Assembly: GCA_030651895.1 (NCBI GenBank)
Contig: JAUSBR010000013.1
Span: 62,001 to 126,000 of the forward strand
Direction: 5' to 3'
Length of the DNA: 64,000 nt
From: Sideroxyarcus sp.
GTDB lineage: Bacteria; Pseudomonadota; Gammaproteobacteria; Burkholderiales; Gallionellaceae
Positions 1,317 to 62,803 of this stretch are shown piece after piece (position 1 is the first letter of the stretch; each line of letters begins with the position of its first letter). The notes under the pieces are model-generated. The model was given only the letters and a program-made list of their open reading frames with translations, was not told where the DNA came from and did not search any database. The position numbers and the translations under genes were made by a program.

Positions 1317-2630
<1,314 letters not shown>

Positions 2631-3338
2631 TTACTTGCTGCCCTGCTGCTTGGACTCCACATGCTTGCTGGCTGGGGTTTCGCCATCATCAGGAGAGCCT
2701 TGTTCTTTCGCGAACAACACTGCCGCCTTTACGCGGGACGACAGATTGAGTTTGTTCAGGATGTGACGCACATGCTGCTTGACCGTGTCATAGCTGATCT
2801 TCAGCGTCTGCGCGATAGCCTTGTTGCTCTCGCCGCGCGATAGCAACTGCAGAATCTCGCGCTCGCGCTCGGTCAGCAGTTTGAGCGAGTTCTTCGGCTC
2901 CTGTCCCGGCTGGTCGCCGCGCAGCATGTCGATCATCTTTACGGTCATGGTCGGGGCCACTACCAGTTCGCCCGCTGCCACGCGGCGGATGGCATCCACC
3001 ACTTCCTCCGGCGCCATGTCCTTGAGCAGATAGCCGCGCACACCGGCACGGATCGCGTTGCCCAGATCCACTTCAGAATCGCTCATGGTCAGCACTACGG
3101 CGGGGATGGTGCAGCCTTCCTTGCGGATCTGTTCCAGCATCGCCAGGCCGTCCATCGGTTTCATGCGCAGGTCCATCACCAGCAGGTCGGGCTGCTCTTT
3201 GATCAGGTTGCGCAATTCGTCTATGGAGCCGACTGCGCCGAGTACATTGAAACCATAGCAGCGGGCGAGCAATTCACTCAGCCCGCGCCGACACAGACTC
3301 TGGTCGTCCACTAGTGCGATCTTCAATTCCTCAGCCAT
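2631..3338 (-). CDS. NarL/FixJ-family response regulator
   Basis: A 235-residue regulator with an N-terminal receiver domain (acidic pair D11-D12, phosphoacceptor D56 in VMDLRM, conserved Lys in YLLKD). The C-terminal LuxR-type helix-turn-helix (about 155-212) reads LTEREREILQLLSRGESNKAIA. A Lys/Ser/Gln-rich tail follows. The ATG at 3338 is chosen because GGAGAACTACGC precedes it and because it overlaps the kinase stop by 8 bp, which implies translational coupling. A longer in-frame start upstream lies inside the kinase. Partner of the adjacent kinase. Candidate binder of the tandem dyads at 4692-4733 and at three other sulfur-gene promoters (inference). Confidence 0.92.
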   Translation of the reverse strand: MAEELKIALVDDQSLCRRGLSELLARCYGFNVLGAVGSIDELRNLIKEQPDLLVMDLRMKPMDGLAMLEQIRKEGCTIPAVVLTMSDSEVDLGNAIRAGVRGYLLKDMAPEEVVDAIRRVAAGELVVAPTMTVKMIDMLRGDQPGQEPKNSLKLLTEREREILQLLSRGESNKAIAQTLKISYDTVKQHVRHILNKLNLSSRVKAAVLFAKEQGSPDDGETPASKHVESKQQGSK

Positions 3339-4554
3339 GCGTAGTTCTCCAGTTCGTCCCTGGTTCAGGGAAGAATAATTGTACGCATGTTCCAAGCCCT
3401 TTGGTGCTTTCTACCTTGATTTCTCCGCCGATACGCTGCGCTCGCTCGCGCATGATGATGATGCCGTAATGGCCCTCCACGGGCGAAAAAGTGCCGACGC
3501 CGTTGTCCTCGACGGTGAAGACGTAGAAACCGCAGAGATGGTCAACGATCAGCCGCGCATGGCCTGCGTTGGAGTGCTTGGCGATGTTGGAGAGTGCCTC
3601 GCGCACGATGTGATAGGTCTGAATCTCGTGCTCCAGTGGCAGGTCGAGGTCGGCGACGCGAATGGAGCAATCGAGCACGATGTTGTGCTGTTCCTCGAAG
3701 CGCTCGGCCAGCATCTGCAAGGCGTGCAACAGGCCGGCTGGATCCATCTCGCTGCGGAAGTCGGTGATCAGGGTGCGTACCGCCTTCTGGCCAATCTCCA
3801 AGGCCTCATCGATGTCGCGCACATATTTTGTCGCCATCAGTTCATTGTCGTTGCGCACCGCATCGCTCAGTAACGTGGTGTTCATGCGCGCGTAGTTCAG
3901 CGTCTGCGCCAGCGAATCGTGGATCTCGTTGGCGATGCTTTGACGTTCCCTTAACAATTCCTCGCGCTTTGCCTCGCGCGTGGTTTTGATGTGCTCGATC
4001 AGGGTACCCAGCAGGTCGGCGAAACTGGTCGCCATGGTGGCGGCGTTACCCGAAGAGGATTGCGGGGTATCGAAGAACAGTGTGAAGACGCCAAGCAGGG
4101 CTTCAGGGGAATTGCGGCATTCGATCGGAATGGAGATGACCGACTGGAACTGACCGTTCAGGCGGTCACCCTGCCGTGTCTCACAGGTGTAGACATCGGT
4201 TGAGCAGAGGCCGTGCTTGAATGCATCTTTACCGCAATCCTCGCAGGCTAGGTCGACGATACGCTCGGCTTCCATTTCTTCGCCGGTCAGGCCGACCGCG
4301 CTGATGACCTGTAGCGTCTGTTCGTCCGGCAGCAGCACGCGTACCACGCCAGCGCGGGCCTTGATGATGCCGATGGCCGTTTCGAGGAACGAGTTCAGCA
4401 GTGTGCGCAGGTCACTGGCGCGGGAAGCGGCGAATTCCTGTTCCACGCAGGTATCCAGCCCGCCGTTCTTGCCGGGGAGTACGAACTCGGGGTCGCGCGT
4501 CCAGAAGAACGCCGCGTTGTCCGGTTCGTCCACTGGTTTCATCTTTCTGCCCAT
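3331..4554 (-). CDS. Cytosolic NarX-like sensor histidine kinase with GAF domain and Cys cluster
   Basis: A 407-residue kinase without membrane segments. A GAF-like domain covers about residues 45-190, followed by a HisKA_3 dimerisation helix (ANEIHDSLAQTLNYARM, phospho-His212) and an HATPase_c domain ending near HYGIIIMRERAQRIGGEI. Inside the GAF region four cysteines are clustered at 104, 107, 117 and 124 (CEDC...C...C), a possible metal, Fe-S or persulfide site. It is the first gene of the operon kinase-regulator-sqr. The promoter region 4555-4791 holds tandem dyads and two short palindromes. The ligand is unknown; sulfide or a redox signal is inferred from the sqr linkage. Confidence 0.9.
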   Translation of the reverse strand: MGRKMKPVDEPDNAAFFWTRDPEFVLPGKNGGLDTCVEQEFAASRASDLRTLLNSFLETAIGIIKARAGVVRVLLPDEQTLQVISAVGLTGEEMEAERIVDLACEDCGKDAFKHGLCSTDVYTCETRQGDRLNGQFQSVISIPIECRNSPEALLGVFTLFFDTPQSSSGNAATMATSFADLLGTLIEHIKTTREAKREELLRERQSIANEIHDSLAQTLNYARMNTTLLSDAVRNDNELMATKYVRDIDEALEIGQKAVRTLITDFRSEMDPAGLLHALQMLAERFEEQHNIVLDCSIRVADLDLPLEHEIQTYHIVREALSNIAKHSNAGHARLIVDHLCGFYVFTVEDNGVGTFSPVEGHYGIIIMRERAQRIGGEIKVESTKGLGTCVQLFFPEPGTNWRTTHG

Positions 4555-4691: not shown

Positions 4692-4733
4692 TACCCCAAT
4701 AGGGTTATAGTTCGCGCCACCCGATGTGGTTAT
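4692..4733. promoter_or_regulatory. Tandem dyad site A (sulfur regulon candidate operator)
   Basis: Two related 17-mers sit 25 bp apart: TACCCCAATAGGGTTAT (4692-4708) and CCACCCGATGTGGTTAT (4717-4733). They match an imperfect dyad TAACCC-N4-GGGTTAT also seen in tandem at 19687-19728, 32222-32262 and 46887-46925. The halves resemble NarL heptamers in 7-2-7 arrangement. The site lies between the divergent kinase/regulator/sqr operon and the phosphoesterase gene. Confidence 0.6.
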
Positions 4734-4791
4734 AGACACTATACGAGTGAATTCTGCCTAATGCGCCGGATTCCCGCGACACGAAAATGGT

Positions 4792-5322
4792 ATGAAGATC
4801 TGCATCGTTTCTGACAGTCATGACCGCTCCGATCCCCTGGTGGCGGCTATTGTAGAGGCGCAGGCTGCCGGGGCGCAGGCTGTCATCCATTGCGGCGACC
4901 TGATCGGTGTGAACACACTGCGTGCTTCCCTCAAGCTGGGCATCCCCATCCATGCCGTACATGGCAACAACATCGGCGATATCGCGTCGCTGTACCGGAC
5001 GATGGCAAAGTCCAATGGCGTATTCACCTATTATGGCCAAGAAGCGGTGCTGGAGTTGGGCGGGCGCAAGATATTTGTCACCCATATGCCGAACCATGGA
5101 CACGCTTTCGCCTGCACTGGCGACTACGACCTGGTCTGCCACGGCCACAGCCACACGGCACATGTCGACAAACAGCCCCATGTCAAAGGTGGCGAGTGCT
5201 GGCTGGTGAATCCCGGTTCGGTCGCGGGCATAGACGCGCCGGGCGTGAAAGCCCTCCCGACCTGGATACTTGGCGATCTGGCAACCATGACTTTTGAAAT
5301 CCGCAAGCTACCGGAGGGTTGA
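4792..5322 (+). CDS. YfcE/MJ0936-type metallophosphoesterase
   Basis: A 176-residue single-domain calcineurin-like phosphoesterase of the YfcE/YmdB class, probably cytosolic. Metal-binding motifs appear in order: DSH (SDSHD, residues 8-10), GDL (HCGDL near 35-39), GNN (VHGNN near 59-63) and C-terminal GHSHTAH (about 120-126). Natural substrates of this family are poorly known (phosphodiesters in vitro). No strong ribosome binding site precedes the ATG. It is transcribed away from the kinase operon and may share the regulatory region containing the tandem dyads. Confidence 0.85.
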   Translation: MKICIVSDSHDRSDPLVAAIVEAQAAGAQAVIHCGDLIGVNTLRASLKLGIPIHAVHGNNIGDIASLYRTMAKSNGVFTYYGQEAVLELGGRKIFVTHMPNHGHAFACTGDYDLVCHGHSHTAHVDKQPHVKGGECWLVNPGSVAGIDAPGVKALPTWILGDLATMTFEIRKLPEG

Positions 5323-5484: not shown

Positions 5485-5871
5485 ATGCAACACCTTCTAC
5501 CCAAAGAAGCCTTCGAATTCATGAAGGCCAATCCCGAGGCCGTCTTTATCGACGTGCGCAGCGAGATGGAACACATGTTCGTCGGTCACCCGCGCGGCTC
5601 CATCCTGATCCCCTGGGTGGATGGTCCCGACTGGGAGATCGACCCGCATTTCGTTTCCAAAGTGCGCAAGGCCGCCAGCGTCAACCGTCCCGTCGTACTC
5701 ATCTGCCGTTCCGGCCGTCGCTCTGCCGATGCCGGAGAAGCGCTGGAGAAGGCCGGGATAAAGGATGTCTACAATGTGGCACACGGTTTTGAAGGCGATC
5801 TCGACGATACCCATCACCGCAATTCGCACAATGGCTGGCGCTTCGATGGCTTGCCTTGGGCGCAGACCTAA
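5485..5871 (+). CDS. Single-domain rhodanese (sulfurtransferase)
   Basis: A 128-residue rhodanese-homology protein without signal peptide, so cytoplasmic. The substrate loop entry FIDVRSEMEHMFVGHPRGS is near residues 20-38. The active-site loop CRSGRRS is near 73-79, the catalytic cysteine being the first residue. AGGGGAGC precedes the ATG. Single-domain rhodaneses carry persulfide sulfur and in sulfur oxidisers commonly hand it to TusA-type carriers. It sits next to a DsrC/TusE-like gene, and tusA-dsrE2 is present at 47023-47747. The partner is inferred. Confidence 0.9.
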   Translation: MQHLLPKEAFEFMKANPEAVFIDVRSEMEHMFVGHPRGSILIPWVDGPDWEIDPHFVSKVRKAASVNRPVVLICRSGRRSADAGEALEKAGIKDVYNVAHGFEGDLDDTHHRNSHNGWRFDGLPWAQT

Positions 5872-15061: not shown

Positions 15062-16954
15062 TTAGTGGTGGTCTACCGGCGCCGCTTTCTCTACATCACC
15101 AACCAGGTGGTAGAGCGGTGCTTTTTCCATCGTGTACTCACCCGTCTTTGGATCGCGACGGGAAACTGTCAGCACGTGCCAGTTCTTGTCATCCAGCTTC
15201 ATCACGTCGCCGCGGTAGTAGTAACCAGGCCAACGAGTTTCCTTACGGAACAGCGTATGTTGGAACACGCTCTCGGAAGTCAGGAAACGATGCTTCAGCT
15301 CCCATGCACGCAGCAGTTCATGGATGTCAGACGCGGCAACCTTTTCCAGGTCTTCACCCAGAATCGACATCTTCTTCAGACCGATGTTCAGGAGCTTGTC
15401 GTTGGTCATGTAGTTGACACCAAAACCACCACAGTACTCGTCCATCATCTTCTGCAAGCGATCAAGACCCTGTCTCGGATTGATGAAGTTGGGATTGACC
15501 GTACCGGCAACTACTTCATTGCTGAAGACGCGGTAAGTTTCCATGGGCTTGTAGACTTGTTCCTTACGACGATTGATCTGAGCGTCGGAGACACGGATGC
15601 CCTCTGCTTTGCCATCATCGATGTATTTACAAGCAGCCTTGGCAGCCAGTCGACCTTCGGTGAACGAACCGGAAGAGAAGGCGTGCGGTGTTCCGCCTAC
15701 CGCATCACCGGCACCGAACAGACCTTCAATGGTCGTCATGCGGTTATAGCCCCAGAAATACTCTTTCGGAGAGATGTCTTCCGGACCGGAACACCATGCG
15801 CCGCAACCTGTTGCGTGCGAACCCATGACGTAAGGCTCGGAAGTGGTCAGCTCGGGGTTCTCGTACTTGGGATCCACGTCTGTAGCTGCCCACAGCACGG
15901 CCTGACCAACGGTCATGCCCAGGAAGTTGTGCCAGCCGATCTCCTCGAGGTGAGGATCCTGGAAGGCTTCCATGGTGACCATGTGGATCGGGCCGCGACC
16001 GGCATTCACCTCGTTGATGATCGCATGGTTGCGCAGGCAGGTCGGGATGGGACGATGCGTGCGGTGCGAGACTTCCGGATCCAGATATTCCTTGCCCACC
16101 ATTTGCTGCAGTGCCGGGAACCACTTGGACTCGTACTCTTCACCGTAGCCATTCTGGGTATAGGTCTTGAGGTGCAGGAAGTAGGCGCCGACAGGGCCGT
16201 AACCGTCCTTGAAGCGAGCCAGCACGATACGGTTTTCCATTTGCGTCATCTTTGCACCGGCTTCGATCATCAGGCCGTATGCAGAGCCAGAAGACCACGG
16301 TGCGTACCAGACACGACCCGCACCTTCACCGACAGAGCGCGGCTTGAAGATGTTGGAAGCGCCACCGGCGCCGCAGATAACCGTCTTGGCCTTGAACACG
16401 TGGTAGTTACCCGTGCGGACATTGAAGCCCACTGCACCGGCAACACGGTTCTCTTTGGATTCATCCATCAGCAGGTGAGTTACGCAGATGCGGTTGAACA
16501 CCTTGTCCGCCGACTTCTTGGCTGCATCAGCAACGATAGGCTTGTAGGATTCGCCGTGAATCATGATCTGCCAACGGCCTTCACGCAGATACGAACCCTT
16601 CTTCTCGTTGCGCATGATGGGCAGACCCCATTCTTCGAAGTTATGCACAGCGGAGTCAACGTGGCGTGCCATGTCGAACAGCAGGTCTTCGCGAACCATA
16701 CCCATCAGGTCGATACGTGCATAGCGCACATGATCTTCAGGATTGTTTTCGCCGAAGCGGGTGCCCATGTAGCAGTTGATCGCGTACAGGCCTTGCGCCA
16801 CAGCGCCGGAACGCATGATGTTCGCTTTTTCTGCGATGACGATCTTCTTGTCCTGACCCCAATATCTTGCCTCGAATGCCGCGCCCGTACCGCCTAGGCC
16901 AGCACCGACAACCAGGATGTCGATATTGTCTTCGATAATTGTCGAGTAGCTCAT
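15062..16954 (-). CDS. aprA: Adenylylsulfate (APS) reductase, alpha subunit
   Basis: 630 residues. FAD flavoprotein subunit of cytoplasmic APS reductase, here working in the oxidative direction (sulfite + AMP to APS). The FAD motif GAGLGGTGAAFEA starts at residue 17. AprA-typical segments are present: IMRSGAVAQGLYAINCYMG, WGLPIMRNEKKGSYLREGRWQIMIHGESYKPI, GGTPHAFSSGSFTEGRLAAKAA. Full length. The ATG overlaps the aprB stop by one base (TGATG). Last gene of sat-aprM-aprB-aprA. Presence of aprM and association with sox genes supports the sulfur-oxidiser lineage rather than sulfate reducers. Confidence 0.97.
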   Translation of the reverse strand: MSYSTIIEDNIDILVVGAGLGGTGAAFEARYWGQDKKIVIAEKANIMRSGAVAQGLYAINCYMGTRFGENNPEDHVRYARIDLMGMVREDLLFDMARHVDSAVHNFEEWGLPIMRNEKKGSYLREGRWQIMIHGESYKPIVADAAKKSADKVFNRICVTHLLMDESKENRVAGAVGFNVRTGNYHVFKAKTVICGAGGASNIFKPRSVGEGAGRVWYAPWSSGSAYGLMIEAGAKMTQMENRIVLARFKDGYGPVGAYFLHLKTYTQNGYGEEYESKWFPALQQMVGKEYLDPEVSHRTHRPIPTCLRNHAIINEVNAGRGPIHMVTMEAFQDPHLEEIGWHNFLGMTVGQAVLWAATDVDPKYENPELTTSEPYVMGSHATGCGAWCSGPEDISPKEYFWGYNRMTTIEGLFGAGDAVGGTPHAFSSGSFTEGRLAAKAACKYIDDGKAEGIRVSDAQINRRKEQVYKPMETYRVFSNEVVAGTVNPNFINPRQGLDRLQKMMDEYCGGFGVNYMTNDKLLNIGLKKMSILGEDLEKVAASDIHELLRAWELKHRFLTSESVFQHTLFRKETRWPGYYYRGDVMKLDDKNWHVLTVSRRDPKTGEYTMEKAPLYHLVGDVEKAAPVDHH

Positions 16955-17436
16955 CAGTATTGCACTCCCTCTTTGATTTCCAGACCGTTGGATTGCAGTG
17001 TGTGCAATCCGCCGTCATCCATGCGAATGTATTTAGGCTCATTGAACAGCAGTTGGCTGTTGCGCATTTCCTTGCTGGGGGCGGGGACCTTTGCGAGGTC
17101 CGGTGTCGCCGAACCCCAGGGCTTGGTCGTGATAGGTGCCAGCAGCTCCATATCTTTCTTGCCGTTGCGGAACTTGATGCGCCACGCGATCGTGCCTTTT
17201 TCTTCATCACGGATCACGCGAACACTGTGTCCAAGCGGTGCAAAGTCGGCATAACCGCGTACATCGATCGCTTGATGCGGGCAGGCCTTCACGCAGGAAT
17301 AGCATTCCCAGCACATGCTGGGTTCGATGTTGTAAGCGCGACGCAGCTTCTTGTCGATGTGCATGATGTCGGACGGGCAGATGTCAACGCATTCTCCGCA
17401 ACCGTCACAACGTGTCATATATACAAACGTTGGCAT
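16954..17436 (-). CDS. aprB: Adenylylsulfate (APS) reductase, beta subunit
   Basis: 160 residues. Iron-sulfur subunit carrying electrons between the AprA flavin and the membrane. Two [4Fe-4S] motifs: CDGCGECVDICPSD (residues 10-23) and CWECYSCVKACPHQA (about 42-56). A beta-rich part and a C-terminal tail wrapping around AprA follow, as known for the family. No signal peptide. It lies 43 bp downstream of aprM and overlaps aprA by one base. Confidence 0.97.
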   Translation of the reverse strand: MPTFVYMTRCDGCGECVDICPSDIMHIDKKLRRAYNIEPSMCWECYSCVKACPHQAIDVRGYADFAPLGHSVRVIRDEEKGTIAWRIKFRNGKKDMELLAPITTKPWGSATPDLAKVPAPSKEMRNSQLLFNEPKYIRMDDGGLHTLQSNGLEIKEGVQY

Positions 17437-17479: not shown

Positions 17480-18304
17480 TTAGTAATGGTCGGCTCGTTC
17501 GGCCTTGATGCACAGTCCCATGTTGGGCGGGTTCTTGCCCATATACTGGGGCACATCCGGGAACTTGCGCTGTACTTCCGGATCCGTCAGGTCATAGTCG
17601 GGCGGCAGGTTCTCGCGTCCACCGTCGGCCATGATCACGCGCTTCTGGAAGGCCGCAGCGGGCTTGAAGAACATGTGCGCGAACTTGGACCAATACACGC
17701 CGCCAAAGAGCACGGTGCTGGACAGGATGAACAAGGCAAAGAATACGGTTACGCCACCGCCGGTGAACGACCAGATCAATGCGAAGGTCGAGGTGGCCAG
17801 CAGCGAGAGGATGAACAGGTCAGCGCGCTCGAGCCGGAAAGCGGACAGGCCTTCCGCAGCTACATCGGCGCGGATAAAGAACCAGAACCAGTATCCGCCC
17901 ACGGCCAGCATCAGTGCGCCGATGTGCCACAGCTGTGGCAGCAGGGTAGAGGTGGACTCCGGCGAGAAGATCATGATCGCGGTCGTCACGATGAAGATGA
18001 TGGTTCCCCACATGGTCAACAGATGGGAAATCCTGCGCCGTGGATTGTCGAATTCACCGGAGGTCAAAACTTCTTTTACCAGCACGGCTGCGGCCATCGA
18101 CACCTTTTCACCGCCGCTCACTTCGCGCTTGGCGCTCTTCTGAGCTTTTTTCGCATTCTCGAAAAAGTACTGCGCGCTTTTCTTGTGCAGCATGTCAAGT
18201 ATCGTCCCGCCCATGACCAGCAGGACCATCAATATGATGTAGCCCTGCATGTAAGCGGTTGGAATCGTTGCCGAAAGATCGACAAAGGGATTGCTTGTGA
18301 ACAT
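17480..18304 (-). CDS. aprM: AprM, putative membrane anchor/electron partner of APS reductase
   Basis: 274 residues with about five to six transmembrane helices (for example MQGYIILMVLLVMGGTIL, TMWGTIIFIVTTAIMIF, LWHIGALMLAVGGYWFWFFI, LFILSLLATSTFALIWSF, VFFALFILSSTVLFGGVYW). It resembles the membrane protein AprM of sulfur-oxidising bacteria, which replaces QmoABC as link between AprBA and quinone (role inferred in the literature from gene context). Histidines in the helices (SHLLTMWG, WHIGAL) could bind heme. It is located between sat and aprBA. Confidence 0.85.
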   Translation of the reverse strand: MFTSNPFVDLSATIPTAYMQGYIILMVLLVMGGTILDMLHKKSAQYFFENAKKAQKSAKREVSGGEKVSMAAAVLVKEVLTSGEFDNPRRRISHLLTMWGTIIFIVTTAIMIFSPESTSTLLPQLWHIGALMLAVGGYWFWFFIRADVAAEGLSAFRLERADLFILSLLATSTFALIWSFTGGGVTVFFALFILSSTVLFGGVYWSKFAHMFFKPAAAFQKRVIMADGGRENLPPDYDLTDPEVQRKFPDVPQYMGKNPPNMGLCIKAERADHY

Positions 18305-18414: not shown

Positions 18415-19596
18415 TTACTTTCCAGCTTCTTCCAAACTCGCGTAATAGGCACGCAAAATCTCCAACACCTCGGGACGACTGAACTCTGCGGGCACATTCT
18501 CCCCTTTGGAGAGTGAGTTGCGCAACTGCGTCCCGGAGACTTGCAGGCGGTCGGCATCGTCGTGCGGGCAGGTCTTGGCCGAGGCCATGCCGCCGCATTT
18601 ATAACACCAAAACGAGATATCGATCTTCAGAGCTTCGGTTTCCAGCGCGCCCTTGGGCACCTGGTCGAAGATGTGATGCGCGTCGAACGGGCCGTAGTAG
18701 CTGCCGACACCGGCGTGGTCGCGACCGACGATCTGGTGCGAGCAGCCGTAGTTCTGGCGGAACACCGCGTGCAGCAGTGCCTCGCGCGGACCGGCATAAC
18801 GCATGTCGAGCGGATAGCCCGCCTGTACCACGGTCTTCTTGACGAAGTATTTTTCGGTCAGGGTGCCGATGGCCTTGGCGCGTACTTCGGCGGGGATGTC
18901 GCCCGGCTTCAGGTTGCCCAGCAACGAGTGAATCAGCACGCCATCGCAGACTTCGATGGCGATCTTGGCCAGATACTCGTGCGAACGGTGCATCGGGTTG
19001 CGCGTCTGGAAACAGGCGATCTTGGACCAGCCCATCTGGCTGAAGATCTCGCGCGTCTGTTTGGGGGTCTTGAACAGCTCGGGATACTTCTCCGGGAAGC
19101 CGCCTTGCGACAGGACCTTGATGGAGCCGGCAAGATTGACCTCGCCCTGCTCCATGACCATCTTGACGCCGGGGTGTTTCGGGTCGGTGGTCTTGAACAC
19201 CATGGCGCACTCGTGCGCCTTGTCGATGGTGTATTTCTCGGTGATCGACATGGTGGCAAGCGTCTCGCCGTTCTCCGGGTCGGTCAGCGCTACCTCTTGG
19301 CCGGTCTTGATTGAGTCGGCGACGGCCTGGCTGACGGACAGCGTGATGGGGATGGGCCAGAACAGGCCGTTGGCCATCTTCATGCCATCGCACACACCTT
19401 GCCAGTCGGCATGCGTCATGAAGCCATCCAGCGGGGTGAAGCCGCCGATGCCGAACATGATGATATCGCCCTTTTCGCGCGAGCTGACTTTGACTTGTGG
19501 AAGTTTCTTTGCTTTTTCGAGTTCGGACTTGAGTGCGGAACCTTCGAGCAACAACGGATTGAGACTGCCCCCGCCATGCGGGTTGACCAACGCCAT
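18415..19596 (-). CDS. sat: Sulfate adenylyltransferase (dissimilatory ATP sulfurylase)
   Basis: 393 residues, homo-oligomeric cytoplasmic enzyme. In this pathway it converts APS and pyrophosphate to ATP and sulfate. Signature motifs: [15 protein letters not shown] (about 195-209) and [17 protein letters not shown] (about 290-306). Near the C-terminus the Cys residues in [19 protein letters not shown] form a zinc-like site common in this Sat type. RBS AAGGGAGG precedes the ATG. First gene of the sat-aprMBA operon. The divergent region to soeA carries the tandem dyads at 19687-19728. Confidence 0.97.
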
Positions 19597-19686: not shown

Positions 19687-19728
19687 TAGCCCTCATGGGT
19701 TGAGAGAGGCACCCCCCTTATGGGTTAT
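19687..19728. promoter_or_regulatory. Tandem dyad site B between sat and soeA
   Basis: TAGCCCTCATGGGTTGA (19687-19703) and CCCCCCTTATGGGTTAT (19712-19728) are spaced 25 bp apart, exactly as at 4692-4733. The site lies 90-132 bp upstream of sat and 125-166 bp upstream of soeA, so one regulator could serve both sulfite-oxidising routes. Confidence 0.65.
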
Positions 19729-19835
19729 GCTTCAATCCCTCATCACGGCTATGGTAGTGCTGGCGCGGGATACGCATACTTGCGGGCCTAAAAAAAGCCT
19801 AGTAGTTTTGTAGGGCTGTAGCACCTCGATAACTA

Positions 19836-19852: not shown

Positions 19853-22768
19853 ATGTCATCGACCCCTTTGCATGACCCTCTCGCGCCGCCGGTTGCGGAC
19901 GCGAAAACCGAGGTTAAAAACACCACTTGTTATATGTGCGCCTGCCGTTGCGGCATCCGCGTGCACATGCGCAACGGCGAAGTCCGTTATATCGACGGCA
20001 ACCCCGACCATCCGCTCAACAACGGCGTTATCTGTGCCAAGGGTTCGTCCGGCATCATGAAGCAGTATTCGCCCGCGCGGCTGACCAAGCCGTTGCGCCG
20101 CAAGCCCGGCGCAGAGCGCGGTACCAGCGAGTTCGAAGAGATCAGCTGGGAAGAGACCTTCACCATCCTCGGTGAGCGACTGGGCAAGATCCGTGCGACC
20201 GACCCGAAGAAGTTCGCGCTGTTCACCGGCCGCGACCAGATGCAGGCGCTGACCGGTCTGTTCGCACGCCAGTTCGGCACACCCAACTACGCAGCGCACG
20301 GCGGTTTCTGCTCGGTCAACATGGCTGCGGGCATGATCTACACCATCGGTGGCTCGTTCTGGGAGTTCGGCGGCCCTGACCTCGAACGCTCCAAGCTGTT
20401 CATCATGATCGGCACGGCGGAAGACCATCACTCCAATCCGATGAAGATCGCCATCTCCAAGTTCAAGCGCGAGGGCGGCCGTTTCATCTCCATCAATCCG
20501 GTGCGCACCGGTTACTCCGCTATCGCCGACGAGTGGGTGCCCATCCGTCCCGGTACCGATGGCGCGCTGATGCTGGCGCTGATCCACGAGATCATCGCCC
20601 TCGGCCTGTTCGACCGTGAATTCCTGGTGCGCTACACCAACTCCGGGCAACTCATCAACCTCGACGACAAACATGACGAGTTCGGCATGTTCGTGCGTAC
20701 CGAAGTGGCCAAGGAAGAAGGTTGCTACGATCCGCAGAACAAGTTGTGGTGGGATCGCAATACCAACAAGGCGGTGATCACCCATACCGAAGGCGCCGAT
20801 CCTTTCCTGCTCGGCGAATTCAAATTGTCCGACGGCACGCCGGTCAAACCCGCGTTCCAGATGCTGCAGGATCGCGTCAAGGATTACACGCCGGAATGGG
20901 CGGAACAGATCACCGGCATTCCCGCCGACACCATCAAGCGCCTGGCGCACGAGATGGGCATCACCGCGCGCGACCAGAAGATCGAACTGCCGATCGCATG
21001 GACCGATTCCTGGGGCAAGGAGCACGACACTGTCACCGGTAACCCGGTCTCGTTCCACGCCATGCGCGGACTGGCCGCGCACTCCAACGGTTTCCAGACC
21101 ATACGCGCGCTGTCGATCCTGATGACGCTGCTGGGCACCATTGACCGCCCTGGCGGCTTCCGTCACAAGCCGCCGTTCCCGCGTCCGATCCCGCCCTGCG
21201 CGCGCACACCCAACCATCCCAAGGCAGTGCAGCCGAACACGCCGCTGGACGGCATGGCCCTCGGTTGGCCGTCCGATCCGGATGACCTCTTCGTCAACGA
21301 GGACGGCAGCCCAGTGCGTATCGACAAGGCGTTCTCGTGGGAGTACCCGCTGTCGGTGCACGGCCTGATGCACAACGCCATCACCAACGCCTGGCGCGGC
21401 GATCCCTACAAGATCGACACGCTGTTGCTGTTCATGGCTAACATGGCCTGGAACTCCTCGATGAACACCAGCGAAGTGCGCAAGATGCTGGTCGACAAGG
21501 ACGAGAACGGCGAATACAAGATCCCGTTCCTGGTGGTGTGCGACGCCTTCCAATCCGAAACCACCGCCTTCGCCGACCTGATCCTGCCGGATACGACCTA
21601 CCTCGAGCGTCACGATGTGATGTCCATGCTCGACCGTCCGATCTCCGAGTTCGACGGTCCGGTGGATTCGGTGCGCATCCCCGTGGTGCCGCCGACCGGC
21701 GAATGCAAACCGTTCCAGGAAGTGCTGATCGAACTCGGTTCGCGCCTGAAGCTGCCCGCTTTCGTGAACAAGGATGGCGGGCGCAAGTTCAAGGACTATC
21801 CCGACTTCATCGTCAACTGGGAGACCGCGCCGGGTTCCGGCATCGGCTTCCTGTCCGGCTGGCGCGGCAAGGGGGGCGAGAAGACTTTGCGCGGCGAACC
21901 GAACCCGAACCAGTGGGAGATGTATGCCAAGAACGATTGCGTGCACCACTACAAGTTACCGCGCTCCTACCAGTTCATGCGCAACTGGAACCAGGGTTAT
22001 CTGGAGTGGTCGCAGAGCAACGGCATCACGCGCTATGCCGAACCCATCCTGATCCATGTCTATTCCGAAGTGCTGCAGAAGTTCCGTCTCGCCGCGCAGG
22101 GCAAGAGCATCACGCGCCAGCCGCCCAAGCATCTGGCCAAGCGCATCGAGACCTTCTTCGATCCGCTGCCGTTCTACTACGAGCCGCTGGAGACGCAGAC
22201 GACAGACAAACTGAAGTACCCGCTGTCCGCGCTGACGCAGCGTCCGATGGCGATGTACCACTCGTGGGATTCGCAGAACGCCTGGCTGCGCCAGATCCAT
22301 GCGCACAACTATCTCTACGTGAATGCGAAGACGGCCAAGGATGCGGGCATCGCCGACGGCGACTGGATCTGGTGCGAATCGCAATGGGGCAAGGTGCGCT
22401 GCATGGCGCGCTACAGCGAGTCGGTCGAACCCGGCACGGTGTGGACCTGGAACGCCATCGGCAAAGCGGCCGGCGCTTGGAACCTGTCGCCGGACGCGAA
22501 CGAATCGCAGCAAGGCTTTTTGCTCAATCACGTGATCTCGGAAGAGTTGCCGCCGGAAGCGGACGGCAAGCGTTTCTCCAACTCCGATCCGATCACCGGA
22601 CAGGCGGCTTGGTACGACGTGCGTGTGCGCATCTACAAGGCGGAAGAGGGCGAGCCCGAACAGACCTCGCCGCAATTCGAACCCATGAAGAAATATCCCG
22701 GCATGAAAGAACATCCGAGCTGGCAAGCCTACTTCGGCGGCGGCAAGAAGAAGGGCGGTGCGAAATGA
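19853..22768 (+). CDS. soeA: Sulfite-oxidising enzyme SoeA, molybdopterin subunit
   Basis: 971 residues, DMSO-reductase superfamily. N-terminal [4Fe-4S] site C26-x2-C29-x3-C33-x27-C61, then the molybdopterin oxidoreductase domain (for example GGFCSVNMAAGMIYT, NPVRTGYSAIADEWVPIRPGTDGALMLAL) and a C-terminal dinucleotide-binding domain (NYLYVNAKTAKDAGIADGDWIWCES). There is no Tat signal, so it faces the cytoplasm, as for SoeABC of Allochromatium vinosum, which oxidises sulfite directly to sulfate. Followed by an overlapping FeS subunit and a DmsC-like anchor. Polysulfide/thiosulfate reductase relatives are similar; the context (apr, sox, sulfate carriers) favours Soe. Confidence 0.9.
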   Translation: MSSTPLHDPLAPPVADAKTEVKNTTCYMCACRCGIRVHMRNGEVRYIDGNPDHPLNNGVICAKGSSGIMKQYSPARLTKPLRRKPGAERGTSEFEEISWEETFTILGERLGKIRATDPKKFALFTGRDQMQALTGLFARQFGTPNYAAHGGFCSVNMAAGMIYTIGGSFWEFGGPDLERSKLFIMIGTAEDHHSNPMKIAISKFKREGGRFISINPVRTGYSAIADEWVPIRPGTDGALMLALIHEIIALGLFDREFLVRYTNSGQLINLDDKHDEFGMFVRTEVAKEEGCYDPQNKLWWDRNTNKAVITHTEGADPFLLGEFKLSDGTPVKPAFQMLQDRVKDYTPEWAEQITGIPADTIKRLAHEMGITARDQKIELPIAWTDSWGKEHDTVTGNPVSFHAMRGLAAHSNGFQTIRALSILMTLLGTIDRPGGFRHKPPFPRPIPPCARTPNHPKAVQPNTPLDGMALGWPSDPDDLFVNEDGSPVRIDKAFSWEYPLSVHGLMHNAITNAWRGDPYKIDTLLLFMANMAWNSSMNTSEVRKMLVDKDENGEYKIPFLVVCDAFQSETTAFADLILPDTTYLERHDVMSMLDRPISEFDGPVDSVRIPVVPPTGECKPFQEVLIELGSRLKLPAFVNKDGGRKFKDYPDFIVNWETAPGSGIGFLSGWRGKGGEKTLRGEPNPNQWEMYAKNDCVHHYKLPRSYQFMRNWNQGYLEWSQSNGITRYAEPILIHVYSEVLQKFRLAAQGKSITRQPPKHLAKRIETFFDPLPFYYEPLETQTTDKLKYPLSALTQRPMAMYHSWDSQNAWLRQIHAHNYLYVNAKTAKDAGIADGDWIWCESQWGKVRCMARYSESVEPGTVWTWNAIGKAAGAWNLSPDANESQQGFLLNHVISEELPPEADGKRFSNSDPITGQAAWYDVRVRIYKAEEGEPEQTSPQFEPMKKYPGMKEHPSWQAYFGGGKKKGGAK

Positions 22769-23496
22769 CTCAACTCGCCCTTGTCATCGACTTGAACGTC
22801 TGCGTCGGCTGCCACGCCTGCGTGACCAGCTGCAAGGAGTGGAACACCTCCGGCTCGGCCGGCCCGCTGTGCGACGAGAATCCCTACGGACAGGATCCGA
22901 CCGGCACCTTCTTCAACCGCGTGCAGACTTTCGAGATCGGCACCTACCCGAACAGCGAGACGCTGCATTTCCCCAAATCCTGCCTGCATTGCGAGGATCC
23001 GCCCTGCGTGCCGGTGTGCCCGACCGGCGCATCGTACAAACGCAAACAGGACGGCATCGTGCTGGTGGATTACGACAAGTGCATCGGCTGCAAGTATTGC
23101 ACCTGGGCCTGCCCGTACGGCGCGCGCGAGATCGACGAAAAAGCCAAGGTGATGAAGAAGTGCACCCTGTGCGTTGACCGCATCTACGATATGTCCATGC
23201 CGGAGGCCGACCGCAAACCGTCCTGCGTCAAAGCCTGCCCGACCAGCGCGCGTCTGTTCGGCGACATCCACGATCCCGAATCGGCCGTGTCGCTGGCGAT
23301 CCGCGAAGAGGGCGGTTACGCGCTGATGCCGGAGTGGGGCACGCAACCCGCCAACCATTATCTGCCGCGCCGCAAGATGAAGATGAAGATCCACATGGAT
23401 GAGCTGGAGCGCGCGGACAATCCGCTCAAAGTGGACGGTCACCTGCCCAAACCGGCTAAGGGCGCCTCGTCGATGGACGATGCCTCGGCATGGTAA
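22765..23496 (+). CDS. soeB: SoeB, iron-sulfur subunit
   Basis: 243 residues of the DmsB/NrfC ferredoxin type. Four Cys groups fit four [4Fe-4S] clusters: CVGCHACVTSC (about 13-23), CLHCEDPPCVPVCP, CIGCKYCTWACP and CTLCVDR...CVKACP. No signal peptide. The ATG overlaps the soeA stop (ATGA), giving translational coupling. It passes electrons from the molybdenum subunit to SoeC. The C-terminal tail after residue 205 (Lys/Met/Asp rich) is variable. Confidence 0.93.
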   Translation: MTQLALVIDLNVCVGCHACVTSCKEWNTSGSAGPLCDENPYGQDPTGTFFNRVQTFEIGTYPNSETLHFPKSCLHCEDPPCVPVCPTGASYKRKQDGIVLVDYDKCIGCKYCTWACPYGAREIDEKAKVMKKCTLCVDRIYDMSMPEADRKPSCVKACPTSARLFGDIHDPESAVSLAIREEGGYALMPEWGTQPANHYLPRRKMKMKIHMDELERADNPLKVDGHLPKPAKGASSMDDASAW

Positions 23497-23525
23497 TGAA
23501 GCAACCAGTTTAGGAACGGTACATT

Positions 23526-24509
23526 ATGAAACCAGCATTTTCCGTCATTTTTCTGACTACGCTCATCGGGGCGGCGCAGGGCTTGTTCCTCGCCCTGTTC
23601 ACGCACCAGTCGTATGCGCTGTTCGGCCTGCTGCCGATGCAGTCGGATGATTTCTACGGCTACGGCACTGCCATCGCGATGGTGTTGCTCGGTGGCGGCC
23701 TTTTTGCAGCGGTGTTCCACCTCGGCAAGCCCATCTACATGGTCACCCGCGCATGGCGCGGCATGACCCAGTGGCGCACTTCCTGGCTGTCGCGCGAACT
23801 GATCGCGCTGCCGGCATTCATGGGAATCGTGTTCCTGTATGGCGTGTCGCACCTGGCCGGGTTCCGCCCGGTGCTGCTGACACTGCCCAGCGGCCAGCCC
23901 ATCGATCTGTCTTTCGTGCTCGGCGTTGTCGGTACCTTGCTGGCGTTCACGCTGTTCGTTTGTACCGCGATGATCTACGCCTGCCTGCGTTTCCTGCGCG
24001 AGTGGTACTCGCCGCTGACCGTGATCAACTACATCCTGATGGGCGGGTCTTCCGGCTTCATCCTGGCGGCGTTCTACGCGGCCTCGGCCGCACCCGACCA
24101 GGCTGACTTCTTCGCCGGCTGGGCGATCATCATCACCGTGCTGGCATTCGCCGGACGCGCCGCCTCGCTGGTGCGCAACGCGCGCCTGAAACCGAAATCG
24201 ACCATGCAGACCGCCATCGGCGTCAAGCATCCCACTATCGTGCAGCGCTCGATGGGGGCGATGGGAGGCACGTTCAATACACGCGAGTTCTTCCACGGCA
24301 AGAGCCTCGTCTTCATGCGCGTGATCAAGCCGACGTTCCTGGTAATGGCGTTCGTTCTTCCGCTGGCCCTGTTGGCGCTGGGACTGTTCTCACCCGCCTT
24401 GCTCGGCGTGGCATTCGTGATTCAGTACATCGGCTTGATGGTGGAGCGCTGGTTCTTCTTCGCGCAGGCCAACCATCCGCAGAACCTCTATTACCAGACC
24501 ATAGGTTGA
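23526..24509 (+). CDS. soeC: SoeC, DmsC/NrfD-type membrane anchor
   Basis: 327 residues with about eight predicted membrane helices (VIFLTTLIGAAQGLFLALF, GTAIAMVLLGGGLFAAVF, LPAFMGIVFLYGVSHLAG, VLGVVGTLLAFTLFVCTAMI and others). It is the quinone-reacting anchor of the Soe complex (DmsC-like, Pfam DMSO_anchor). AGGAAC-like purines precede the ATG. It starts 29 bp after soeB and ends 10 bp before the first SulP gene, so transcription probably continues into the transporters. Confidence 0.9.
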   Translation: MKPAFSVIFLTTLIGAAQGLFLALFTHQSYALFGLLPMQSDDFYGYGTAIAMVLLGGGLFAAVFHLGKPIYMVTRAWRGMTQWRTSWLSRELIALPAFMGIVFLYGVSHLAGFRPVLLTLPSGQPIDLSFVLGVVGTLLAFTLFVCTAMIYACLRFLREWYSPLTVINYILMGGSSGFILAAFYAASAAPDQADFFAGWAIIITVLAFAGRAASLVRNARLKPKSTMQTAIGVKHPTIVQRSMGAMGGTFNTREFFHGKSLVFMRVIKPTFLVMAFVLPLALLALGLFSPALLGVAFVIQYIGLMVERWFFFAQANHPQNLYYQTIG

Positions 24510-32221: not shown

Positions 32222-32262
32222 TAACCCCTAAGGGCTATCTCATGTCCCCCCGTGCTGGTTAT
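32222..32262. promoter_or_regulatory. Tandem dyad site C upstream of soxYZ-1
   Basis: TAACCCCTAAGGGCTAT (32222-32238) and CCCCCCGTGCTGGTTAT (32246-32262), 24 bp apart, lie 70-110 bp upstream of the soxY start. The pattern and arrangement match those at 4692, 19687 and 46887. The rest of the 211-bp gap shows no gene. Confidence 0.65.
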
Positions 32263-32331
32263 GGACGCTGATGCAAGGCTGCTATCAAATCTGCTACTGG
32301 CTGATTCTATTAGCTATATTAGGAGATGTTA

Positions 32332-32814
32332 ATGCAGGAAAATGATCACAGCACGATAGATTCCAGTCGTCGCAAAGCTCTCAAAGCGGGTGTCGGCTTG
32401 GGCCTTTTCGGTATGTTTGCCACACTGGGACTGTTGCCGAAGTCGGCCTGGGCCGCAGTCGACCGCAAAGTCTTTGACGCAAAGTCGCTGAAGGAGGCTT
32501 TTCAGGCAATGGGCGGACTGGCGCCAGCGGACAGCAACCTCGTCATCCTCGATGTGCCCGAGACCGCCGAGAACGGAGCTATGGTGCCTGTCACGGTAGA
32601 GTCCAAATTCCCCCGCACCGAACAGATATCCATCCTGGTCGAGAAGAATCCGACCGCACTGGTTGAGAACCTGACGATAGCCGAAGGCACGGAAGGCTTC
32701 ATCACGACCCGTATCAAGATGGCACAGACCTCCACTGTCATCGCGCTGGTCAAGGCGGACGGAAAGTTCTACAAGGCGGTCAAGGAAGTCAAAGTCACCG
32801 CGGGAGGTTGCTGA
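32332..32814 (+). CDS. soxY: SoxY, thiosulfate carrier subunit (copy 1)
   Basis: 160 residues with a twin-arginine-type signal (SSRRKALKAGVGLGLFGMFATL, cleavage after AWA near 41). SoxY carries sulfur intermediates on a C-terminal cysteine in the periplasm. The protein ends TAGGC, so the carrier Cys160 is the very last residue; the usual GGCGG end lacks its last two glycines. The start is ATG 32332 because AGGAG (32321-32325) is 6 bp before it; ATG 32326 would touch the ribosome site. It overlaps soxZ by one base. Confidence 0.93.
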   Translation: MQENDHSTIDSSRRKALKAGVGLGLFGMFATLGLLPKSAWAAVDRKVFDAKSLKEAFQAMGGLAPADSNLVILDVPETAENGAMVPVTVESKFPRTEQISILVEKNPTALVENLTIAEGTEGFITTRIKMAQTSTVIALVKADGKFYKAVKEVKVTAGGC

Positions 32815-33125
32815 TGTCAGACCCGACTAAGATGAAAGCTGTCGCGGCCAATGGCGTGACCGAAGTGCGCGCACTGATGCAGCACGAGATGGAGACCGGT
32901 CGCCGCAAGGACGAATCAGGCAAACTCGTACCGGCATGGTATATCACCGATTTCAAGGTGCAACATAACGGCAGAACGGTTCTGGAAGGCCAGTTCGGCA
33001 CTTCCGTATCCAAGAACCCGTTCCTGGTGTTCCGCTTCAAGGGCGGCAAGGCAGGCGACAAGCTCGCACTCTCCTGGACCGACAATCGCGGCGAAAAACG
33101 TAACGACGAGGTGGCTATCGGCTGA
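32814..33125 (+). CDS. soxZ: SoxZ, sulfur-carrier complex subunit (copy 1)
   Basis: 103 residues, the SoxZ partner that forms the heterodimer with SoxY in the periplasm (no own signal; exported with SoxY). Typical segments: VRALMQHEMETGRRKDESGKLVPAWYITDF and VSKNPFLVFRFKGGKAGDKLALSWTDNRGE. GGAGG lies 6 bp before the ATG, which overlaps the soxY stop. About half of its positions match the second SoxZ at 41437. Confidence 0.94.
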   Translation: MSDPTKMKAVAANGVTEVRALMQHEMETGRRKDESGKLVPAWYITDFKVQHNGRTVLEGQFGTSVSKNPFLVFRFKGGKAGDKLALSWTDNRGEKRNDEVAIG

Positions 33126-38272: not shown

Positions 38273-38896
38273 TCACTTGCTATCGTTGAGCTGTAGCAAT
38301 AACTGTGTCAGTTCCGCGGAGGAATTGATGCCCAACTTCGATTTCAGATTCTGGCAGTGAACCTGCACGGTTCGTTCGGATATATATAGCCGCATGCCGA
38401 TCGCCTTGTAAGGCAAACCTTCCACAACGAGCCGGGCAACTTCCATCTCACGCAGGGTCAGCTTGTTCAAGCGTTCCGACAGCACCGACCTTGTCGCATT
38501 CTCTTTGTGCCGCATGAGGTCGTGCCTGACGGCATGACTGACGGCGTCGAGCAGCGTCTGATCCTTGAATGGCTTCTCGATGAAGTCGCTGGCACCGAAC
38601 TTCATGGCCTGGACGGCAATGGTGACATCGGCATGTCCGGTGAGGAAGATGACCGGCAATTGTATATTTCGCTCATTGAGGGTCCGTTGCAGTTCCAGAC
38701 CGCTCATCAACGGCATACGCACGTCCAGGATCAGGCAGCCGGGTTGGGTGAGCCCGTCCAGTGCCGCCAGGAACGTTTCCGCCGAGTCATAGGCTGCGAC
38801 GCGCCAGCCGACCGATTCAAGCAGGAACACGAGGGCTTTTCGAAGCGATGCATCGTCATCGACGACGATGACCAGTGGAGCTACGCACTCATTCAT
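38273..38896 (-). CDS. TtrR/FixJ-like response regulator
   Basis: 207 residues. Receiver domain with acidic residues D13-D15, phosphoacceptor D58 (LILDVRMPLMSG), T in FLTGHADV and Lys in IEKPF. A LuxR/FixJ helix-turn-helix (about 145-200) reads LTLREMEVARLVVEGLPYKAIGMRL. The ATG overlaps the kinase stop by 8 bp. With the PhnD-domain kinase it forms a TtrSR/ThsSR-like system for tetrathionate or thiosulfate. The 22-bp palindrome at 40727-40748 is a candidate target in front of both its own operon and soxYZAXB. Confidence 0.9.
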   Translation of the reverse strand: MNECVAPLVIVVDDDASLRKALVFLLESVGWRVAAYDSAETFLAALDGLTQPGCLILDVRMPLMSGLELQRTLNERNIQLPVIFLTGHADVTIAVQAMKFGASDFIEKPFKDQTLLDAVSHAVRHDLMRHKENATRSVLSERLNKLTLREMEVARLVVEGLPYKAIGMRLYISERTVQVHCQNLKSKLGINSSAELTQLLLQLNDSK

Positions 38897-40655
38897 TGTT
38901 TCGGTATTCCGGCAGGTTGAGTTGGAAAACGAGTCCGGGCTGCAGCTCGCGGGGGTGGACGCTCAATTTGCCGCTGTGTGCCTCGGCGATACTTTTGCAA
39001 ATGGCAAGTCCGAGCCCGAGCCCATCGGGCTTGGTGGTGAAGAACGGCTCGAAAAGACGGGAGAGTGCCTCGGGCGGGACGTGAGGGCCGTGATCGGCAA
39101 CGGCGATGGTCACGTCGTTGTTGGTCTGGTCCAAGACGATATCGATCATGCGATTTTCCTCGGGCAGGGTGATCATGGCGTCGGCGGCATTCTTCATCAG
39201 GTTGGTCAGAACTTGTTGGATCTGTTGATGATCGGCCTTGAGCATTTTACCTGCAGGCAGGCGGTTGTCTAATGTGACGGGTGGCAAGGACGGCAGCATC
39301 TTTGAGAAGTTGTCTATCGCTTCATTGACAGTGTCGGCGATCGGGCGAAGTTCGCTGGCTGCCATGCGCTTTCTGGCGAAGGTACGCACCTGGCGGATGA
39401 CTTTGTCGGCGCGCTCGGTCTGGGCGACGATCTCATGGTTCACTTTGCTGACCATGTCTGCGTTGACCTGTCCGGAAGCACAGTTCCTTTCCAGTCCCTG
39501 TGCATAGGCGGCGATGGTCGCCAATGGCTGGTTGAGCTCGTGTGCCAGCGTGCTTGCCATCTCGCCCAGGATGGAAAGCCGCGCCATATGTTCGGTCTTG
39601 ATCTGCAGTTCATAGGCTTTTGCCCTTGATTCCCGCAATTCGATGGTGCGGCGTTTGACCAGGATCTGGACGCGGATGAAATAGACGGCGACAGCAAAAA
39701 GAACCAGCAGCGCGGTCAGCAGGTATGGGCGATAGTTCTTCATCAGTCCGCGGTAACTGGTGGTCCTCAACTCTGCGTAAGGGCCGATCATCAGGTCGCG
39801 GTCCAACTCCATGATCGGTTGATAGTCGGCGGGGATGCTCCAGGACAAGCCCTTGGTGGAAGGGGGCATGGAGAACAAGGTCACGGCGACCTTCTTGGCA
39901 AGTTCCTGATCCATGTCCCGCACGGCGGCCAGCGGCCAGTCAGGATAAAGCTGCGTCGAGGGCACGCATTTGAATCCGGGATCGGGACGCGGCGCCACCA
40001 CCTTGAAATCGGCAAGCCGGAGTTTGCCCTGTTTGGACAACTGCTCCATCAGGCAGGTGCGGACGATGGCTACATCGGCTTCGTTCGTGCGCAGGGCGTC
40101 GATGGCCTGGCTCATGGGGAAGCCCACATAGACCAGCTTGGCGTCTCCGGCTTCCAGATCGACGCCTGCGGCCAGCAACTCTCGTGCGGCGGCGAGATAT
40201 CCGCCGAAGGCATCAGTGGCCACCACCGCCACACGCTTGCCGCGCAGATCGGAAAGTCTGCTCACGTCCTTGCGGCCGGCCAATGTCAGGATTGTCGAGC
40301 CCAGCGACTTCTGCGGTGTAGTCGCTTCGGGCAGCATGATGGTGGCGATGCGCTGGATGCCGAACTCCGAAGCGAGAGCAACATACTGGCTGCCGTGGGT
40401 GAGCACGAAACCCAGCTCTCCCTTGCGAACCGCTTCGTTCAATTGCGTGCCGTCCATTGGCGATAGTTCGAACCTGTAGCCGGGGATGGCGGTTGCCAGC
40501 CTGGATTGGATCTCTGCCCAATTGAAAAGCACCCCGTCCAGTTCCCGGTAGGACAATGTGCCGATACGCACAATGGTCTCGGATGCAGTGGCGCAAGTCG
40601 GGAGGATGAGCAGAGAGGCCATCATGACAAAGCGGGCAAAGGCGATGCGGAGCAT
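38889..40655 (-). CDS. TtrS/ThsS-like sensor histidine kinase with PhnD-type periplasmic domain
   Basis: 588 residues. Signal/anchor (1-24), PhnD-like sensor domain (about 27-290) with Cys201 and Cys230 (RTCLMEQ, FKCVPS), TM about 310-328, a linker helix, HisKA with phospho-His372 (STLAHELNQPLATIAAYAQGL) and HATPase_c (NLMKNAADAM, GLGLGLAICKSI). The start at 40655 is chosen because the sensor's signal peptide begins there, with AGAGG upstream; the open frame runs further up but through the promoter region. TtrS senses tetrathionate and ThsS thiosulfate; the ligand here is inferred from adjacent sox genes. Confidence 0.9.
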   Translation of the reverse strand: MLRIAFARFVMMASLLILPTCATASETIVRIGTLSYRELDGVLFNWAEIQSRLATAIPGYRFELSPMDGTQLNEAVRKGELGFVLTHGSQYVALASEFGIQRIATIMLPEATTPQKSLGSTILTLAGRKDVSRLSDLRGKRVAVVATDAFGGYLAAARELLAAGVDLEAGDAKLVYVGFPMSQAIDALRTNEADVAIVRTCLMEQLSKQGKLRLADFKVVAPRPDPGFKCVPSTQLYPDWPLAAVRDMDQELAKKVAVTLFSMPPSTKGLSWSIPADYQPIMELDRDLMIGPYAELRTTSYRGLMKNYRPYLLTALLVLFAVAVYFIRVQILVKRRTIELRESRAKAYELQIKTEHMARLSILGEMASTLAHELNQPLATIAAYAQGLERNCASGQVNADMVSKVNHEIVAQTERADKVIRQVRTFARKRMAASELRPIADTVNEAIDNFSKMLPSLPPVTLDNRLPAGKMLKADHQQIQQVLTNLMKNAADAMITLPEENRMIDIVLDQTNNDVTIAVADHGPHVPPEALSRLFEPFFTTKPDGLGLGLAICKSIAEAHSGKLSVHPRELQPGLVFQLNLPEYRNNE

Positions 40656-40726
40656 GAACAAAGGACCTCTTTTCTTCAGGGGTAATGAAGCAATCTGATT
40701 ATACCCGCCTGTGTCTCGCGCACTGC

Positions 40727-40748
40727 CACTACGCACAAGTGCGTAGTG
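40727..40748. promoter_or_regulatory. 22-bp palindrome in the sensor/sox divergent promoter
   Basis: CACTACGCAC-AA-GTGCGTAGTG is a perfect inverted repeat with 10-bp arms (40727-40736 and 40739-40748), 72 bp upstream of the kinase ATG and 153 bp upstream of soxY-2. The size and symmetry suit a dimer of a LuxR/FixJ-type regulator, most simply the adjacent response regulator. The remaining 245-bp gap holds no gene. Confidence 0.65.
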
Positions 40749-40901
40749 GGTTACTCGAAGGTGCCAATATTTTTCTTTGCTTCGTCGCCTTATCTTGCCA
40801 TCATCGCTGTTGGCAGTACGAGCAGCGTTCTGCTCCCTGAGCGGAACATGGGAGAAGCGTGGCATTTCTTTACAACGGTATTTAACCAGTGGGGGAAAAG
40901 A

Positions 40902-46768: not shown

Positions 46769-46886
46769 GGGGGTGATTTCCATTAAATAGTTAACAAAAA
46801 CAAAATATTGGCGCAATATGCGGAGTGGCGGCCAACGCGTGCGAATGTGATGGGAACGTGAAGGTGTCGCTTGCTCGGAATACAGA

Positions 46887-46925
46887 TAACACCAATGGGG
46901 TATCTAGTTCCCACTTATTGGTTAT
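46887..46925. promoter_or_regulatory. Tandem dyad site D upstream of tusA
   Basis: TAACACCAATGGGGTAT (46887-46903) and TCCCACTTATTGGTTAT (46909-46925), 22 bp apart, lie about 100-135 bp upstream of tusA and 120-160 bp upstream of the divergent MBL gene. A further CGGTTATAG occurs at 46972. Same pattern as sites A, B and C. The rest of the gap shows no gene. Confidence 0.6.
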
Positions 46926-47022
46926 GGACGTGCCGACCAAGTATATTCCTATAATGGCACTCGGTTATAGCACTGAGCCGCACTTTTTTAATCAGCATAT
47001 CTTTATGAGGGAGTAGAGAAAC

Positions 47023-62726: not shown

Positions 62727-62803
62727 GGGCCGAACACCCGTGCGGTATTTCGCCCGCCCCTGATGGTTTATACTGCGCCCTGACTTAATCTACCCGAACA
62801 ACC

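Follow-up and report, generated by a model that had tools for sequence, protein, structure and literature searches.

The window analysed here, a stretch of 64,000 nucleotides from Sideroxyarcus sp., carries several groups of sulfur-oxidation genes, and the same pair of short, imperfect inverted repeats recurs between them. What are these tandem dyads for, and which protein reads them? In open-access PubMed Central text we found no paper that names, for Gallionellaceae, an operator or a regulator of sulfur oxidation genes. The original prediction placed eight 17-mers in four pairs (starting at 4692/4717, 19687/19712, 32222/32246 and 46887/46909), all between genes and with within-pair spacings of 25, 25, 24 and 22 bp. 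All eight were located at these positions, the spacings were reproduced, and gene annotation of the window bears out the intergenic position of every pair. A third dyad in the sat/soeA region, -35 and -10 boxes at fixed distance and the direction of the sites are additions to that first reading. The dyads are the following.

4692..4708, plus strand: distal dyad of the yfcE-side operator, TACCCCAATAGGGTTAT; kept in relatives
4717..4733, plus strand: proximal dyad of the yfcE-side operator, CCACCCGATGTGGTTAT; followed by a -35-like TAGACA (4733-4738) and a -10-like CCTAAT (4757-4762)
19687..19703, plus strand: outer dyad of the sat/soeA region; on the minus strand it serves as the dyad proximal to sat, TAGTGT (19663-19658) lying 29 bases on
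19712..19728, plus strand: middle dyad of the sat/soeA region, CCCCCCTTATGGGTTAT
19736..19752, plus strand: third dyad of the sat/soeA region, TCCCTCATCACGGCTAT; proximal to soeA, with a -10-like CATACT at 19775-19780
32222..32238, plus strand: distal dyad of the soxYZ operator
32246..32262, plus strand: proximal dyad of the soxYZ operator, with a -10-like TCAAAT at 32285-32290
46887..46903, plus strand: distal dyad of the tusA-dsrE2 operator
46909..46925, plus strand: proximal dyad of the tusA-dsrE2 operator, with a -10 box TATAAT at 46950-46955

A weight matrix built from the eight 17-mers scores the four pairs at 42.7-46.6 and the next place in the window at 21.6. Among 100 dinucleotide shuffles of the window, the best pair score was 19.8. 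With a leave-one-out matrix, three of the four held-out pairs outscore all other places in the window; the 4692 pair, when held out, is exceeded by a single place at 62732.

From the four window pairs we built a model using sequence only (R1) and ran it over the host genome, an assembly of 2,126,815 bases in 17 contigs that is 73% complete, so that about a quarter may be missing. At E<=10 only the four window pairs were found. Because R1 scores its own four pairs high by construction, the informative result is the absence of further matches. In this incomplete genome the tandem pair is not equally common at unrelated promoters or inside genes, which agrees with what the original prediction expected of a genome-wide matrix scan. 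A first simple pattern scan did not discriminate in the host, with 275 matches vs 289 in its control. The exact pattern CCC-N5-GGYTATAGAC has a second host match (C12:95285), which lies between genes and is without an upstream dyad. In the family, R1 at E<=0.1 matches 91 of 158 Gallionellaceae genomes, with six matches per genome at most, and the reversed control R3 (the R1 alignment written backwards) matches two of the 158, once each. The single-contig genomes G123 and G124 have three R1 matches each, all within about 16.5 kb. A wider model, R2, built from 41 sites, matches 102 of the 158 family genomes. The shared dyads are real and chance is excluded; the claim of a single operator common to sulfur-gene promoters and conserved in relatives has held.

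The genes faced by the sites, together with the regulatory genes discussed below, are these.

1317..2588, minus strand: sqr-like pyridine nucleotide-disulfide oxidoreductase, the next gene after the regulator
2631..3338, minus strand: NarL-type response regulator, the proposed binder (Response_reg, GerE; nearest solved structure E. coli NarL)
3331..4554, minus strand: sensor kinase (weak GAF-like region, HisKA_3, HATPase_c)
4792-5322 and 5485-5871, plus strand: yfcE-type phosphodiesterase and rhodanese, faced by the 4692 site
18415..19596, minus strand: sat, divergent from soeA; aprBA follow at 15062-17436
19853..24509, plus strand: soeA-type molybdoenzyme and genes called soeB and soeC (molybdopterin and DmsC families)
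32326..33125, plus strand: soxY and soxZ
47023-47250 and 47277-47747, plus strand: tusA and dsrE2

The genes at 19853-24509 are presumably soe genes, a name that was assigned both in the original prediction and by us, beyond the family matches. The sites had been placed in front of four sulfur operons. This stands for sat/soeA, soxYZ and tusA-dsrE2; the 4692 site, however, faces yfcE and not the kinase operon. Gene context was taken from R2 matches in 34 loci and the window, 52 in all; some loci represent the same genome twice, and one partial match was dropped. Five groups account for 47 of the remaining 51 sites: kinase/yfcE (23), sat/soeA (10), tusA-dsrE2 (9), soxYZ (4) and sqr (1). One of the other four faces sqr and three are without an assigned gene group. 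In relatives L029, L108, L163 and L165 the site adjoining the kinase faces soeA, and in L051 and L054 a second site lies between regulator and sqr. The yfcE-type phosphodiesterase and the rhodanese are found downstream of the operator in many relatives too.

Two further genes of these neighborhoods deserve mention. A 274-aa protein encoded at 17480-18304, between aprB and sat, has no Pfam or NCBIfam match and is kept beside sat in relatives. The gene at 45863-46816, divergent from tusA, encodes a zinc metallohydrolase that is related to SoxH and belongs to the quinoprotein relay type (TIGR04559, 385 bits).

The dyad is a 16-bp inverted repeat. Its half-sites had been likened to NarL heptamers in a 7-2-7 arrangement; the 7-2-7 frame is present, but the half-site reads TAACCCN and so differs from the E. 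coli NarL heptamer TACYYMT. When the sites are aligned on their right-hand GG, a -35-like TAGACA or TGGACG follows downstream and then -10-like boxes (CCTAAT for yfcE and sqr, TATAAT for tusA, TCAAAT for soxY). The -35 box lies directly next to the proximal dyad or overlaps with it, and at several promoters the -35 and -10 boxes are poor consensus matches. Spacing was assessed on 80 sites, 73 of them anchorable, with the sat/soeA sites, some f37 sites and duplicates left out. In about 50 of the 73 anchored sites the best -10-like hexamer begins 29-31 bases past the GG, vs about 12 in shuffled flanks; many of the anchored promoters are orthologs, and the sites are thus not independent. With -12 taken as the first base of the -10 box, the predicted center of the proximal dyad is at -43.5 to -45.5 (near -44.5), and that of the distal dyad lies another 22-26 bases upstream, near -66 to -70. 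The predicted proximal center coincides with that of NarL-type activation from tandem 7-2-7 sites, about -44.5 beside the -35 box. On this predicted geometry the sites are to be regarded as directional promoter operators.

In the sat/soeA region a conserved -10-like CATACT stands 29 bases after the third dyad on the soeA side, and a conserved TAGTGT stands 29 bases after the outer dyad on the minus strand, towards sat. Because each of the end dyads has its box at 29 bases, both divergent genes can be served. The situation at the 4692-type site is different. Here the fixed-distance boxes are on the yfcE side only, whereas the kinase side shows conserved blocks at variable distance (13 loci). 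For this reason self-regulation of the kinase/regulator operon, which had also been proposed, is possible but unsupported.

We suggest that the tandem dyads are operators of a sulfur-oxidation regulon of iron- and sulfur-oxidizing bacteria, under the kinase/NarL-type regulator pair beside sqr, and we consider this the probable explanation. Its parts differ in strength. The putative operator and regulon are well supported by the comparisons above, the regulator at 2631-3338 is the likely binder, and activation by the bound regulator appears likely from promoter geometry. The regulator is of NarL/FixJ type, as it exceeds the cut-offs of Response_reg (with 78.2 bits) and of GerE (with 69.6 bits), and it matches the NarL structure 1a04 with E 6e-38. 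It falls below the NCBIfam equivalog cut-offs for NarL (184.8 bits vs 250) and NarP (158.7 vs 343). The kinase, matched in its kinase part, likewise falls below those for NarQ (152.8 bits vs 553) and NarX (111 vs 578). In the Pfam search of the kinase there was no PAS domain and only a weak GAF_2 (23.3 bits vs a cut-off of 28.6), so it does not count as NreB-type. FisR-type sulfur regulators have an AAA+ sigma-54 interaction domain. Pfam finds no such domain in this regulator, and the promoters have -35/-10-like boxes; it is therefore not of FisR type. Two cysteines of the kinase, C104 and C124, are present in all rows of an alignment of 32, a few of which come from one genome; in a wider set of 62 rows, 61 have C104 and 60 have C124. 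Our guess is that the kinase is a thiol or redox sulfur sensor.

Do sites and regulator occur together? Regulator orthologs, defined by at least 65% identity and set apart from paralogs at 32-41%, are present in 95 of the 158 family genomes. With R1, 87 genomes have both site and regulator, four the site only (these are 60-83% complete), eight the regulator only and 59 neither; with R2 the respective numbers are 95, seven, zero and 56. However, soeA is present in 81 family genomes and is distributed nearly like the regulator. Since the genomes are related and the soeA distribution is nearly identical, the co-occurrence is an association and not proof. The attempt to tell the regulator apart from mere sulfur-island membership by means of soeA failed, as the distributions nearly coincide.

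These figures leave some room for another DNA-binding protein, encoded elsewhere, that binds the dyads, the kinase/regulator pair being carried along with the sulfur island as a passenger. Regulator, soeA and sites being distributed nearly alike, co-occurrence does not single out the regulator, and seven genomes have an R2 match but no regulator ortholog. We nevertheless regard such a protein as unlikely. Firstly, the site adjoins the kinase gene in most loci examined and in the f37 genomes. Secondly, the inverted repeat has the 7-2-7 frame which, in the excerpted text of PMC7419079, is bound by NarL-type proteins. Thirdly, the second NarL/FixJ-type regulator of the window (38273-38896) was considered as a general binder and rejected, close orthologs (at least 75% identity) occurring in only eight of the 158 genomes. 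With this competitor excluded as a general binder, the regulator beside sqr, which co-occurs with the sites and was already named in the original prediction, is the best candidate. Its recognition helix does not provide a mark of specificity: TVKQHV had seemed to go with the motif and TVKLHV with its absence, but L100 (G011) and G414 have TVKLHV and the motif. In the second two-component pair (38273-41012), which lies between soxYZ and tusA, the regulator is FixJ/TtrR-like and the kinase has a periplasmic domain of the phosphonate-binding type.

If the regulator beside sqr is the binder, a presumed sulfur or redox signal would lead the kinase to phosphorylate it. The regulator would then bind as two dimers, one at the dyad near -44.5 abutting the -35 box and the other at the dyad near -66 to -70. 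Together the bound dimers might bring sigma-70 RNA polymerase to the genes faced by the site, namely yfcE-rhodanese, soeABC, soxYZ, tusA-dsrE2 and probably, on the minus strand, sat-apr. In relatives, sqr and dsr would be further targets. The same protein could also repress, its dimer over the -35 box blocking RNA polymerase until the signal arrives, and the contact of the proximal dyad with that box would suit such a role. We find this improbable: the two dyads lie upstream, at positions from which NarL activates (PMC7419079, excerpt), and the boxes of several promoters match the consensus poorly. The rise of dsr on thiosulfate in Sideroxydans lithotrophicus ES-1 fits activation, although it is compatible with derepression too (PMC8788666, excerpt). 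Finally, that the pairs arose by chance, or are a repeated element with no part in transcription, is extremely improbable: despite the one window place that beats the held-out 4692 pair, it is refuted by the shuffles, the whole-genome scan, the reversed control, the occurrence in 91-102 of 158 genomes and the fixed-distance promoter boxes.

Activation by a NarL-type regulator from tandem dyads has close parallels. According to the excerpted text of PMC7419079, the ogt promoter is activated by E. coli NarL from two tandem 7-2-7 sites, with centers at -44.5 and -77.5; activation from -67.5 is described too. NarX/NarL at ogt thus resembles the proposed system in the type of regulator and in tandem 7-2-7 inverted repeats, one of which abuts the -35 box at -44.5; it is unlike in its upstream site (-77.5, here near -66 to -70), in its nitrate signal, in its half-site and in its kinase, ours failing the NarQ/NarX cut-offs. 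NreBC of Bacillus licheniformis is described, in the part of PMC9918477 consulted, as sensing sulfide and raising sqr-pdo. It is similar in that a kinase and a NarL-type regulator raise sqr and act on sulfide oxidation, and different in that NreB has a PAS domain (PMC9918477, PMC8139620, both in excerpt) where the kinase here has a weak GAF-like region. As far as these excerpts go, NreBC exerts local control of sqr-pdo, in contrast to the multi-operon lithotrophic regulon proposed here. By analogy, it is the nearest functional precedent. RsrS-RsrR of Acidithiobacillus caldus (PMC5093147) is reportedly a two-component system controlling the tetrathionate pathway; it shares two-component control of inorganic sulfur oxidation and differs in pathway and lineage. 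SoxR and sHdrR of Hyphomicrobium denitrificans (PMC12423496) are said to be one-component ArsR-type repressors that respond to sulfane sulfur; they also regulate thiosulfate oxidation genes, and the difference lies in that one-component, ArsR-type design.

The proposed regulon would be a new one, under a regulatory system of a known kind. The site yields a candidate regulator and a list of targets with predicted promoter positions, for which S. lithotrophicus ES-1 is a culturable test organism. It also suggests a link of sulfur oxidation with a rhodanese and a YfcE-type phosphodiesterase, and the operator may help to recognise other genes of the pathway. In a more far-reaching view, a single two-component activator would act as master switch for lithotrophic sulfur oxidation (dsr, apr-sat, soe, sqr, tusA-dsrE2, soxYZ) in sulfur-oxidizing families throughout the order. 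It would sense reactive sulfur via the conserved C104/C124 of a GAF-like domain, and the YfcE-type phosphodiesterase would be a pathway member so far unrecognised. We offer this as a tentative possibility that we would sooner doubt than accept.

How far does the site reach in the order? Regulator homologs at E<=1e-50 occur in 83 of its 399 genomes, and R2 was run on the 74 of these that lie outside the family. All f37 genomes (8/8) and the one f42 genome, with regulators 59-64% identical, have R2 matches; in each of the eight f37 loci one match adjoins the kinase gene, weakly in L126. The other 65 have regulators 49-59% identical, and 43 of them are without an R2 match at E<=1. The remaining 22 show one to three matches (best E 0.0097), about the number expected by chance. 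A few of these weak matches look genuine, namely three within 25 kb around the regulator of G414, one weak match adjoining the kinase in G238 and one weak match in G465, by eye facing a TusA-like frame. The exact pattern CCC-N5-GGYTATAGAC is present in 33 of the 399 genomes vs 52 for its backwards control (hand count). Its mere presence tells us little, because the control is commoner, and some matches are isolated or inside genes (L212, L216). Still, the pattern occurs in 24 of 83 genomes with the regulator and nine of 316 without; the control shows no such association (13 of 83 and 39 of 316).

R2 is too narrow for the true spread of the site. It scored the G465 and G238 sites weakly, and it missed a variant at dsrA, as seen in G124, where it finds no site at dsr. 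A looser scan with inspection revealed this variant tandem upstream of dsrA in all ten Gallionellaceae loci in which dsrA was found, with TANNAT 29 bases after the GG in 10/10. The f37 genomes have a standard site there, in the interval separating dsrA from a divergent gene. No site was found in the only partly annotated sox cluster of G124, and the stretches of host contig C5 beside the window (L228-L230) yielded no start of dsrA. According to the excerpt of PMC8788666, S. lithotrophicus ES-1 responds to thiosulfate with a rise of both its dsr and its sox genes; the dsr rise fits a predicted membership of dsr in the regulon.

The dsr loci have one more recurrent feature. Divergent from dsrA, at L099:13978-14604, a Cas6/Cmx6-like protein is encoded (TIGR02807, 152 bits, cut-off 98.85), and a frame in L166 matches the same family with 130 bits against the same cut-off. 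Matches to cas6 are found in most dsr loci examined.
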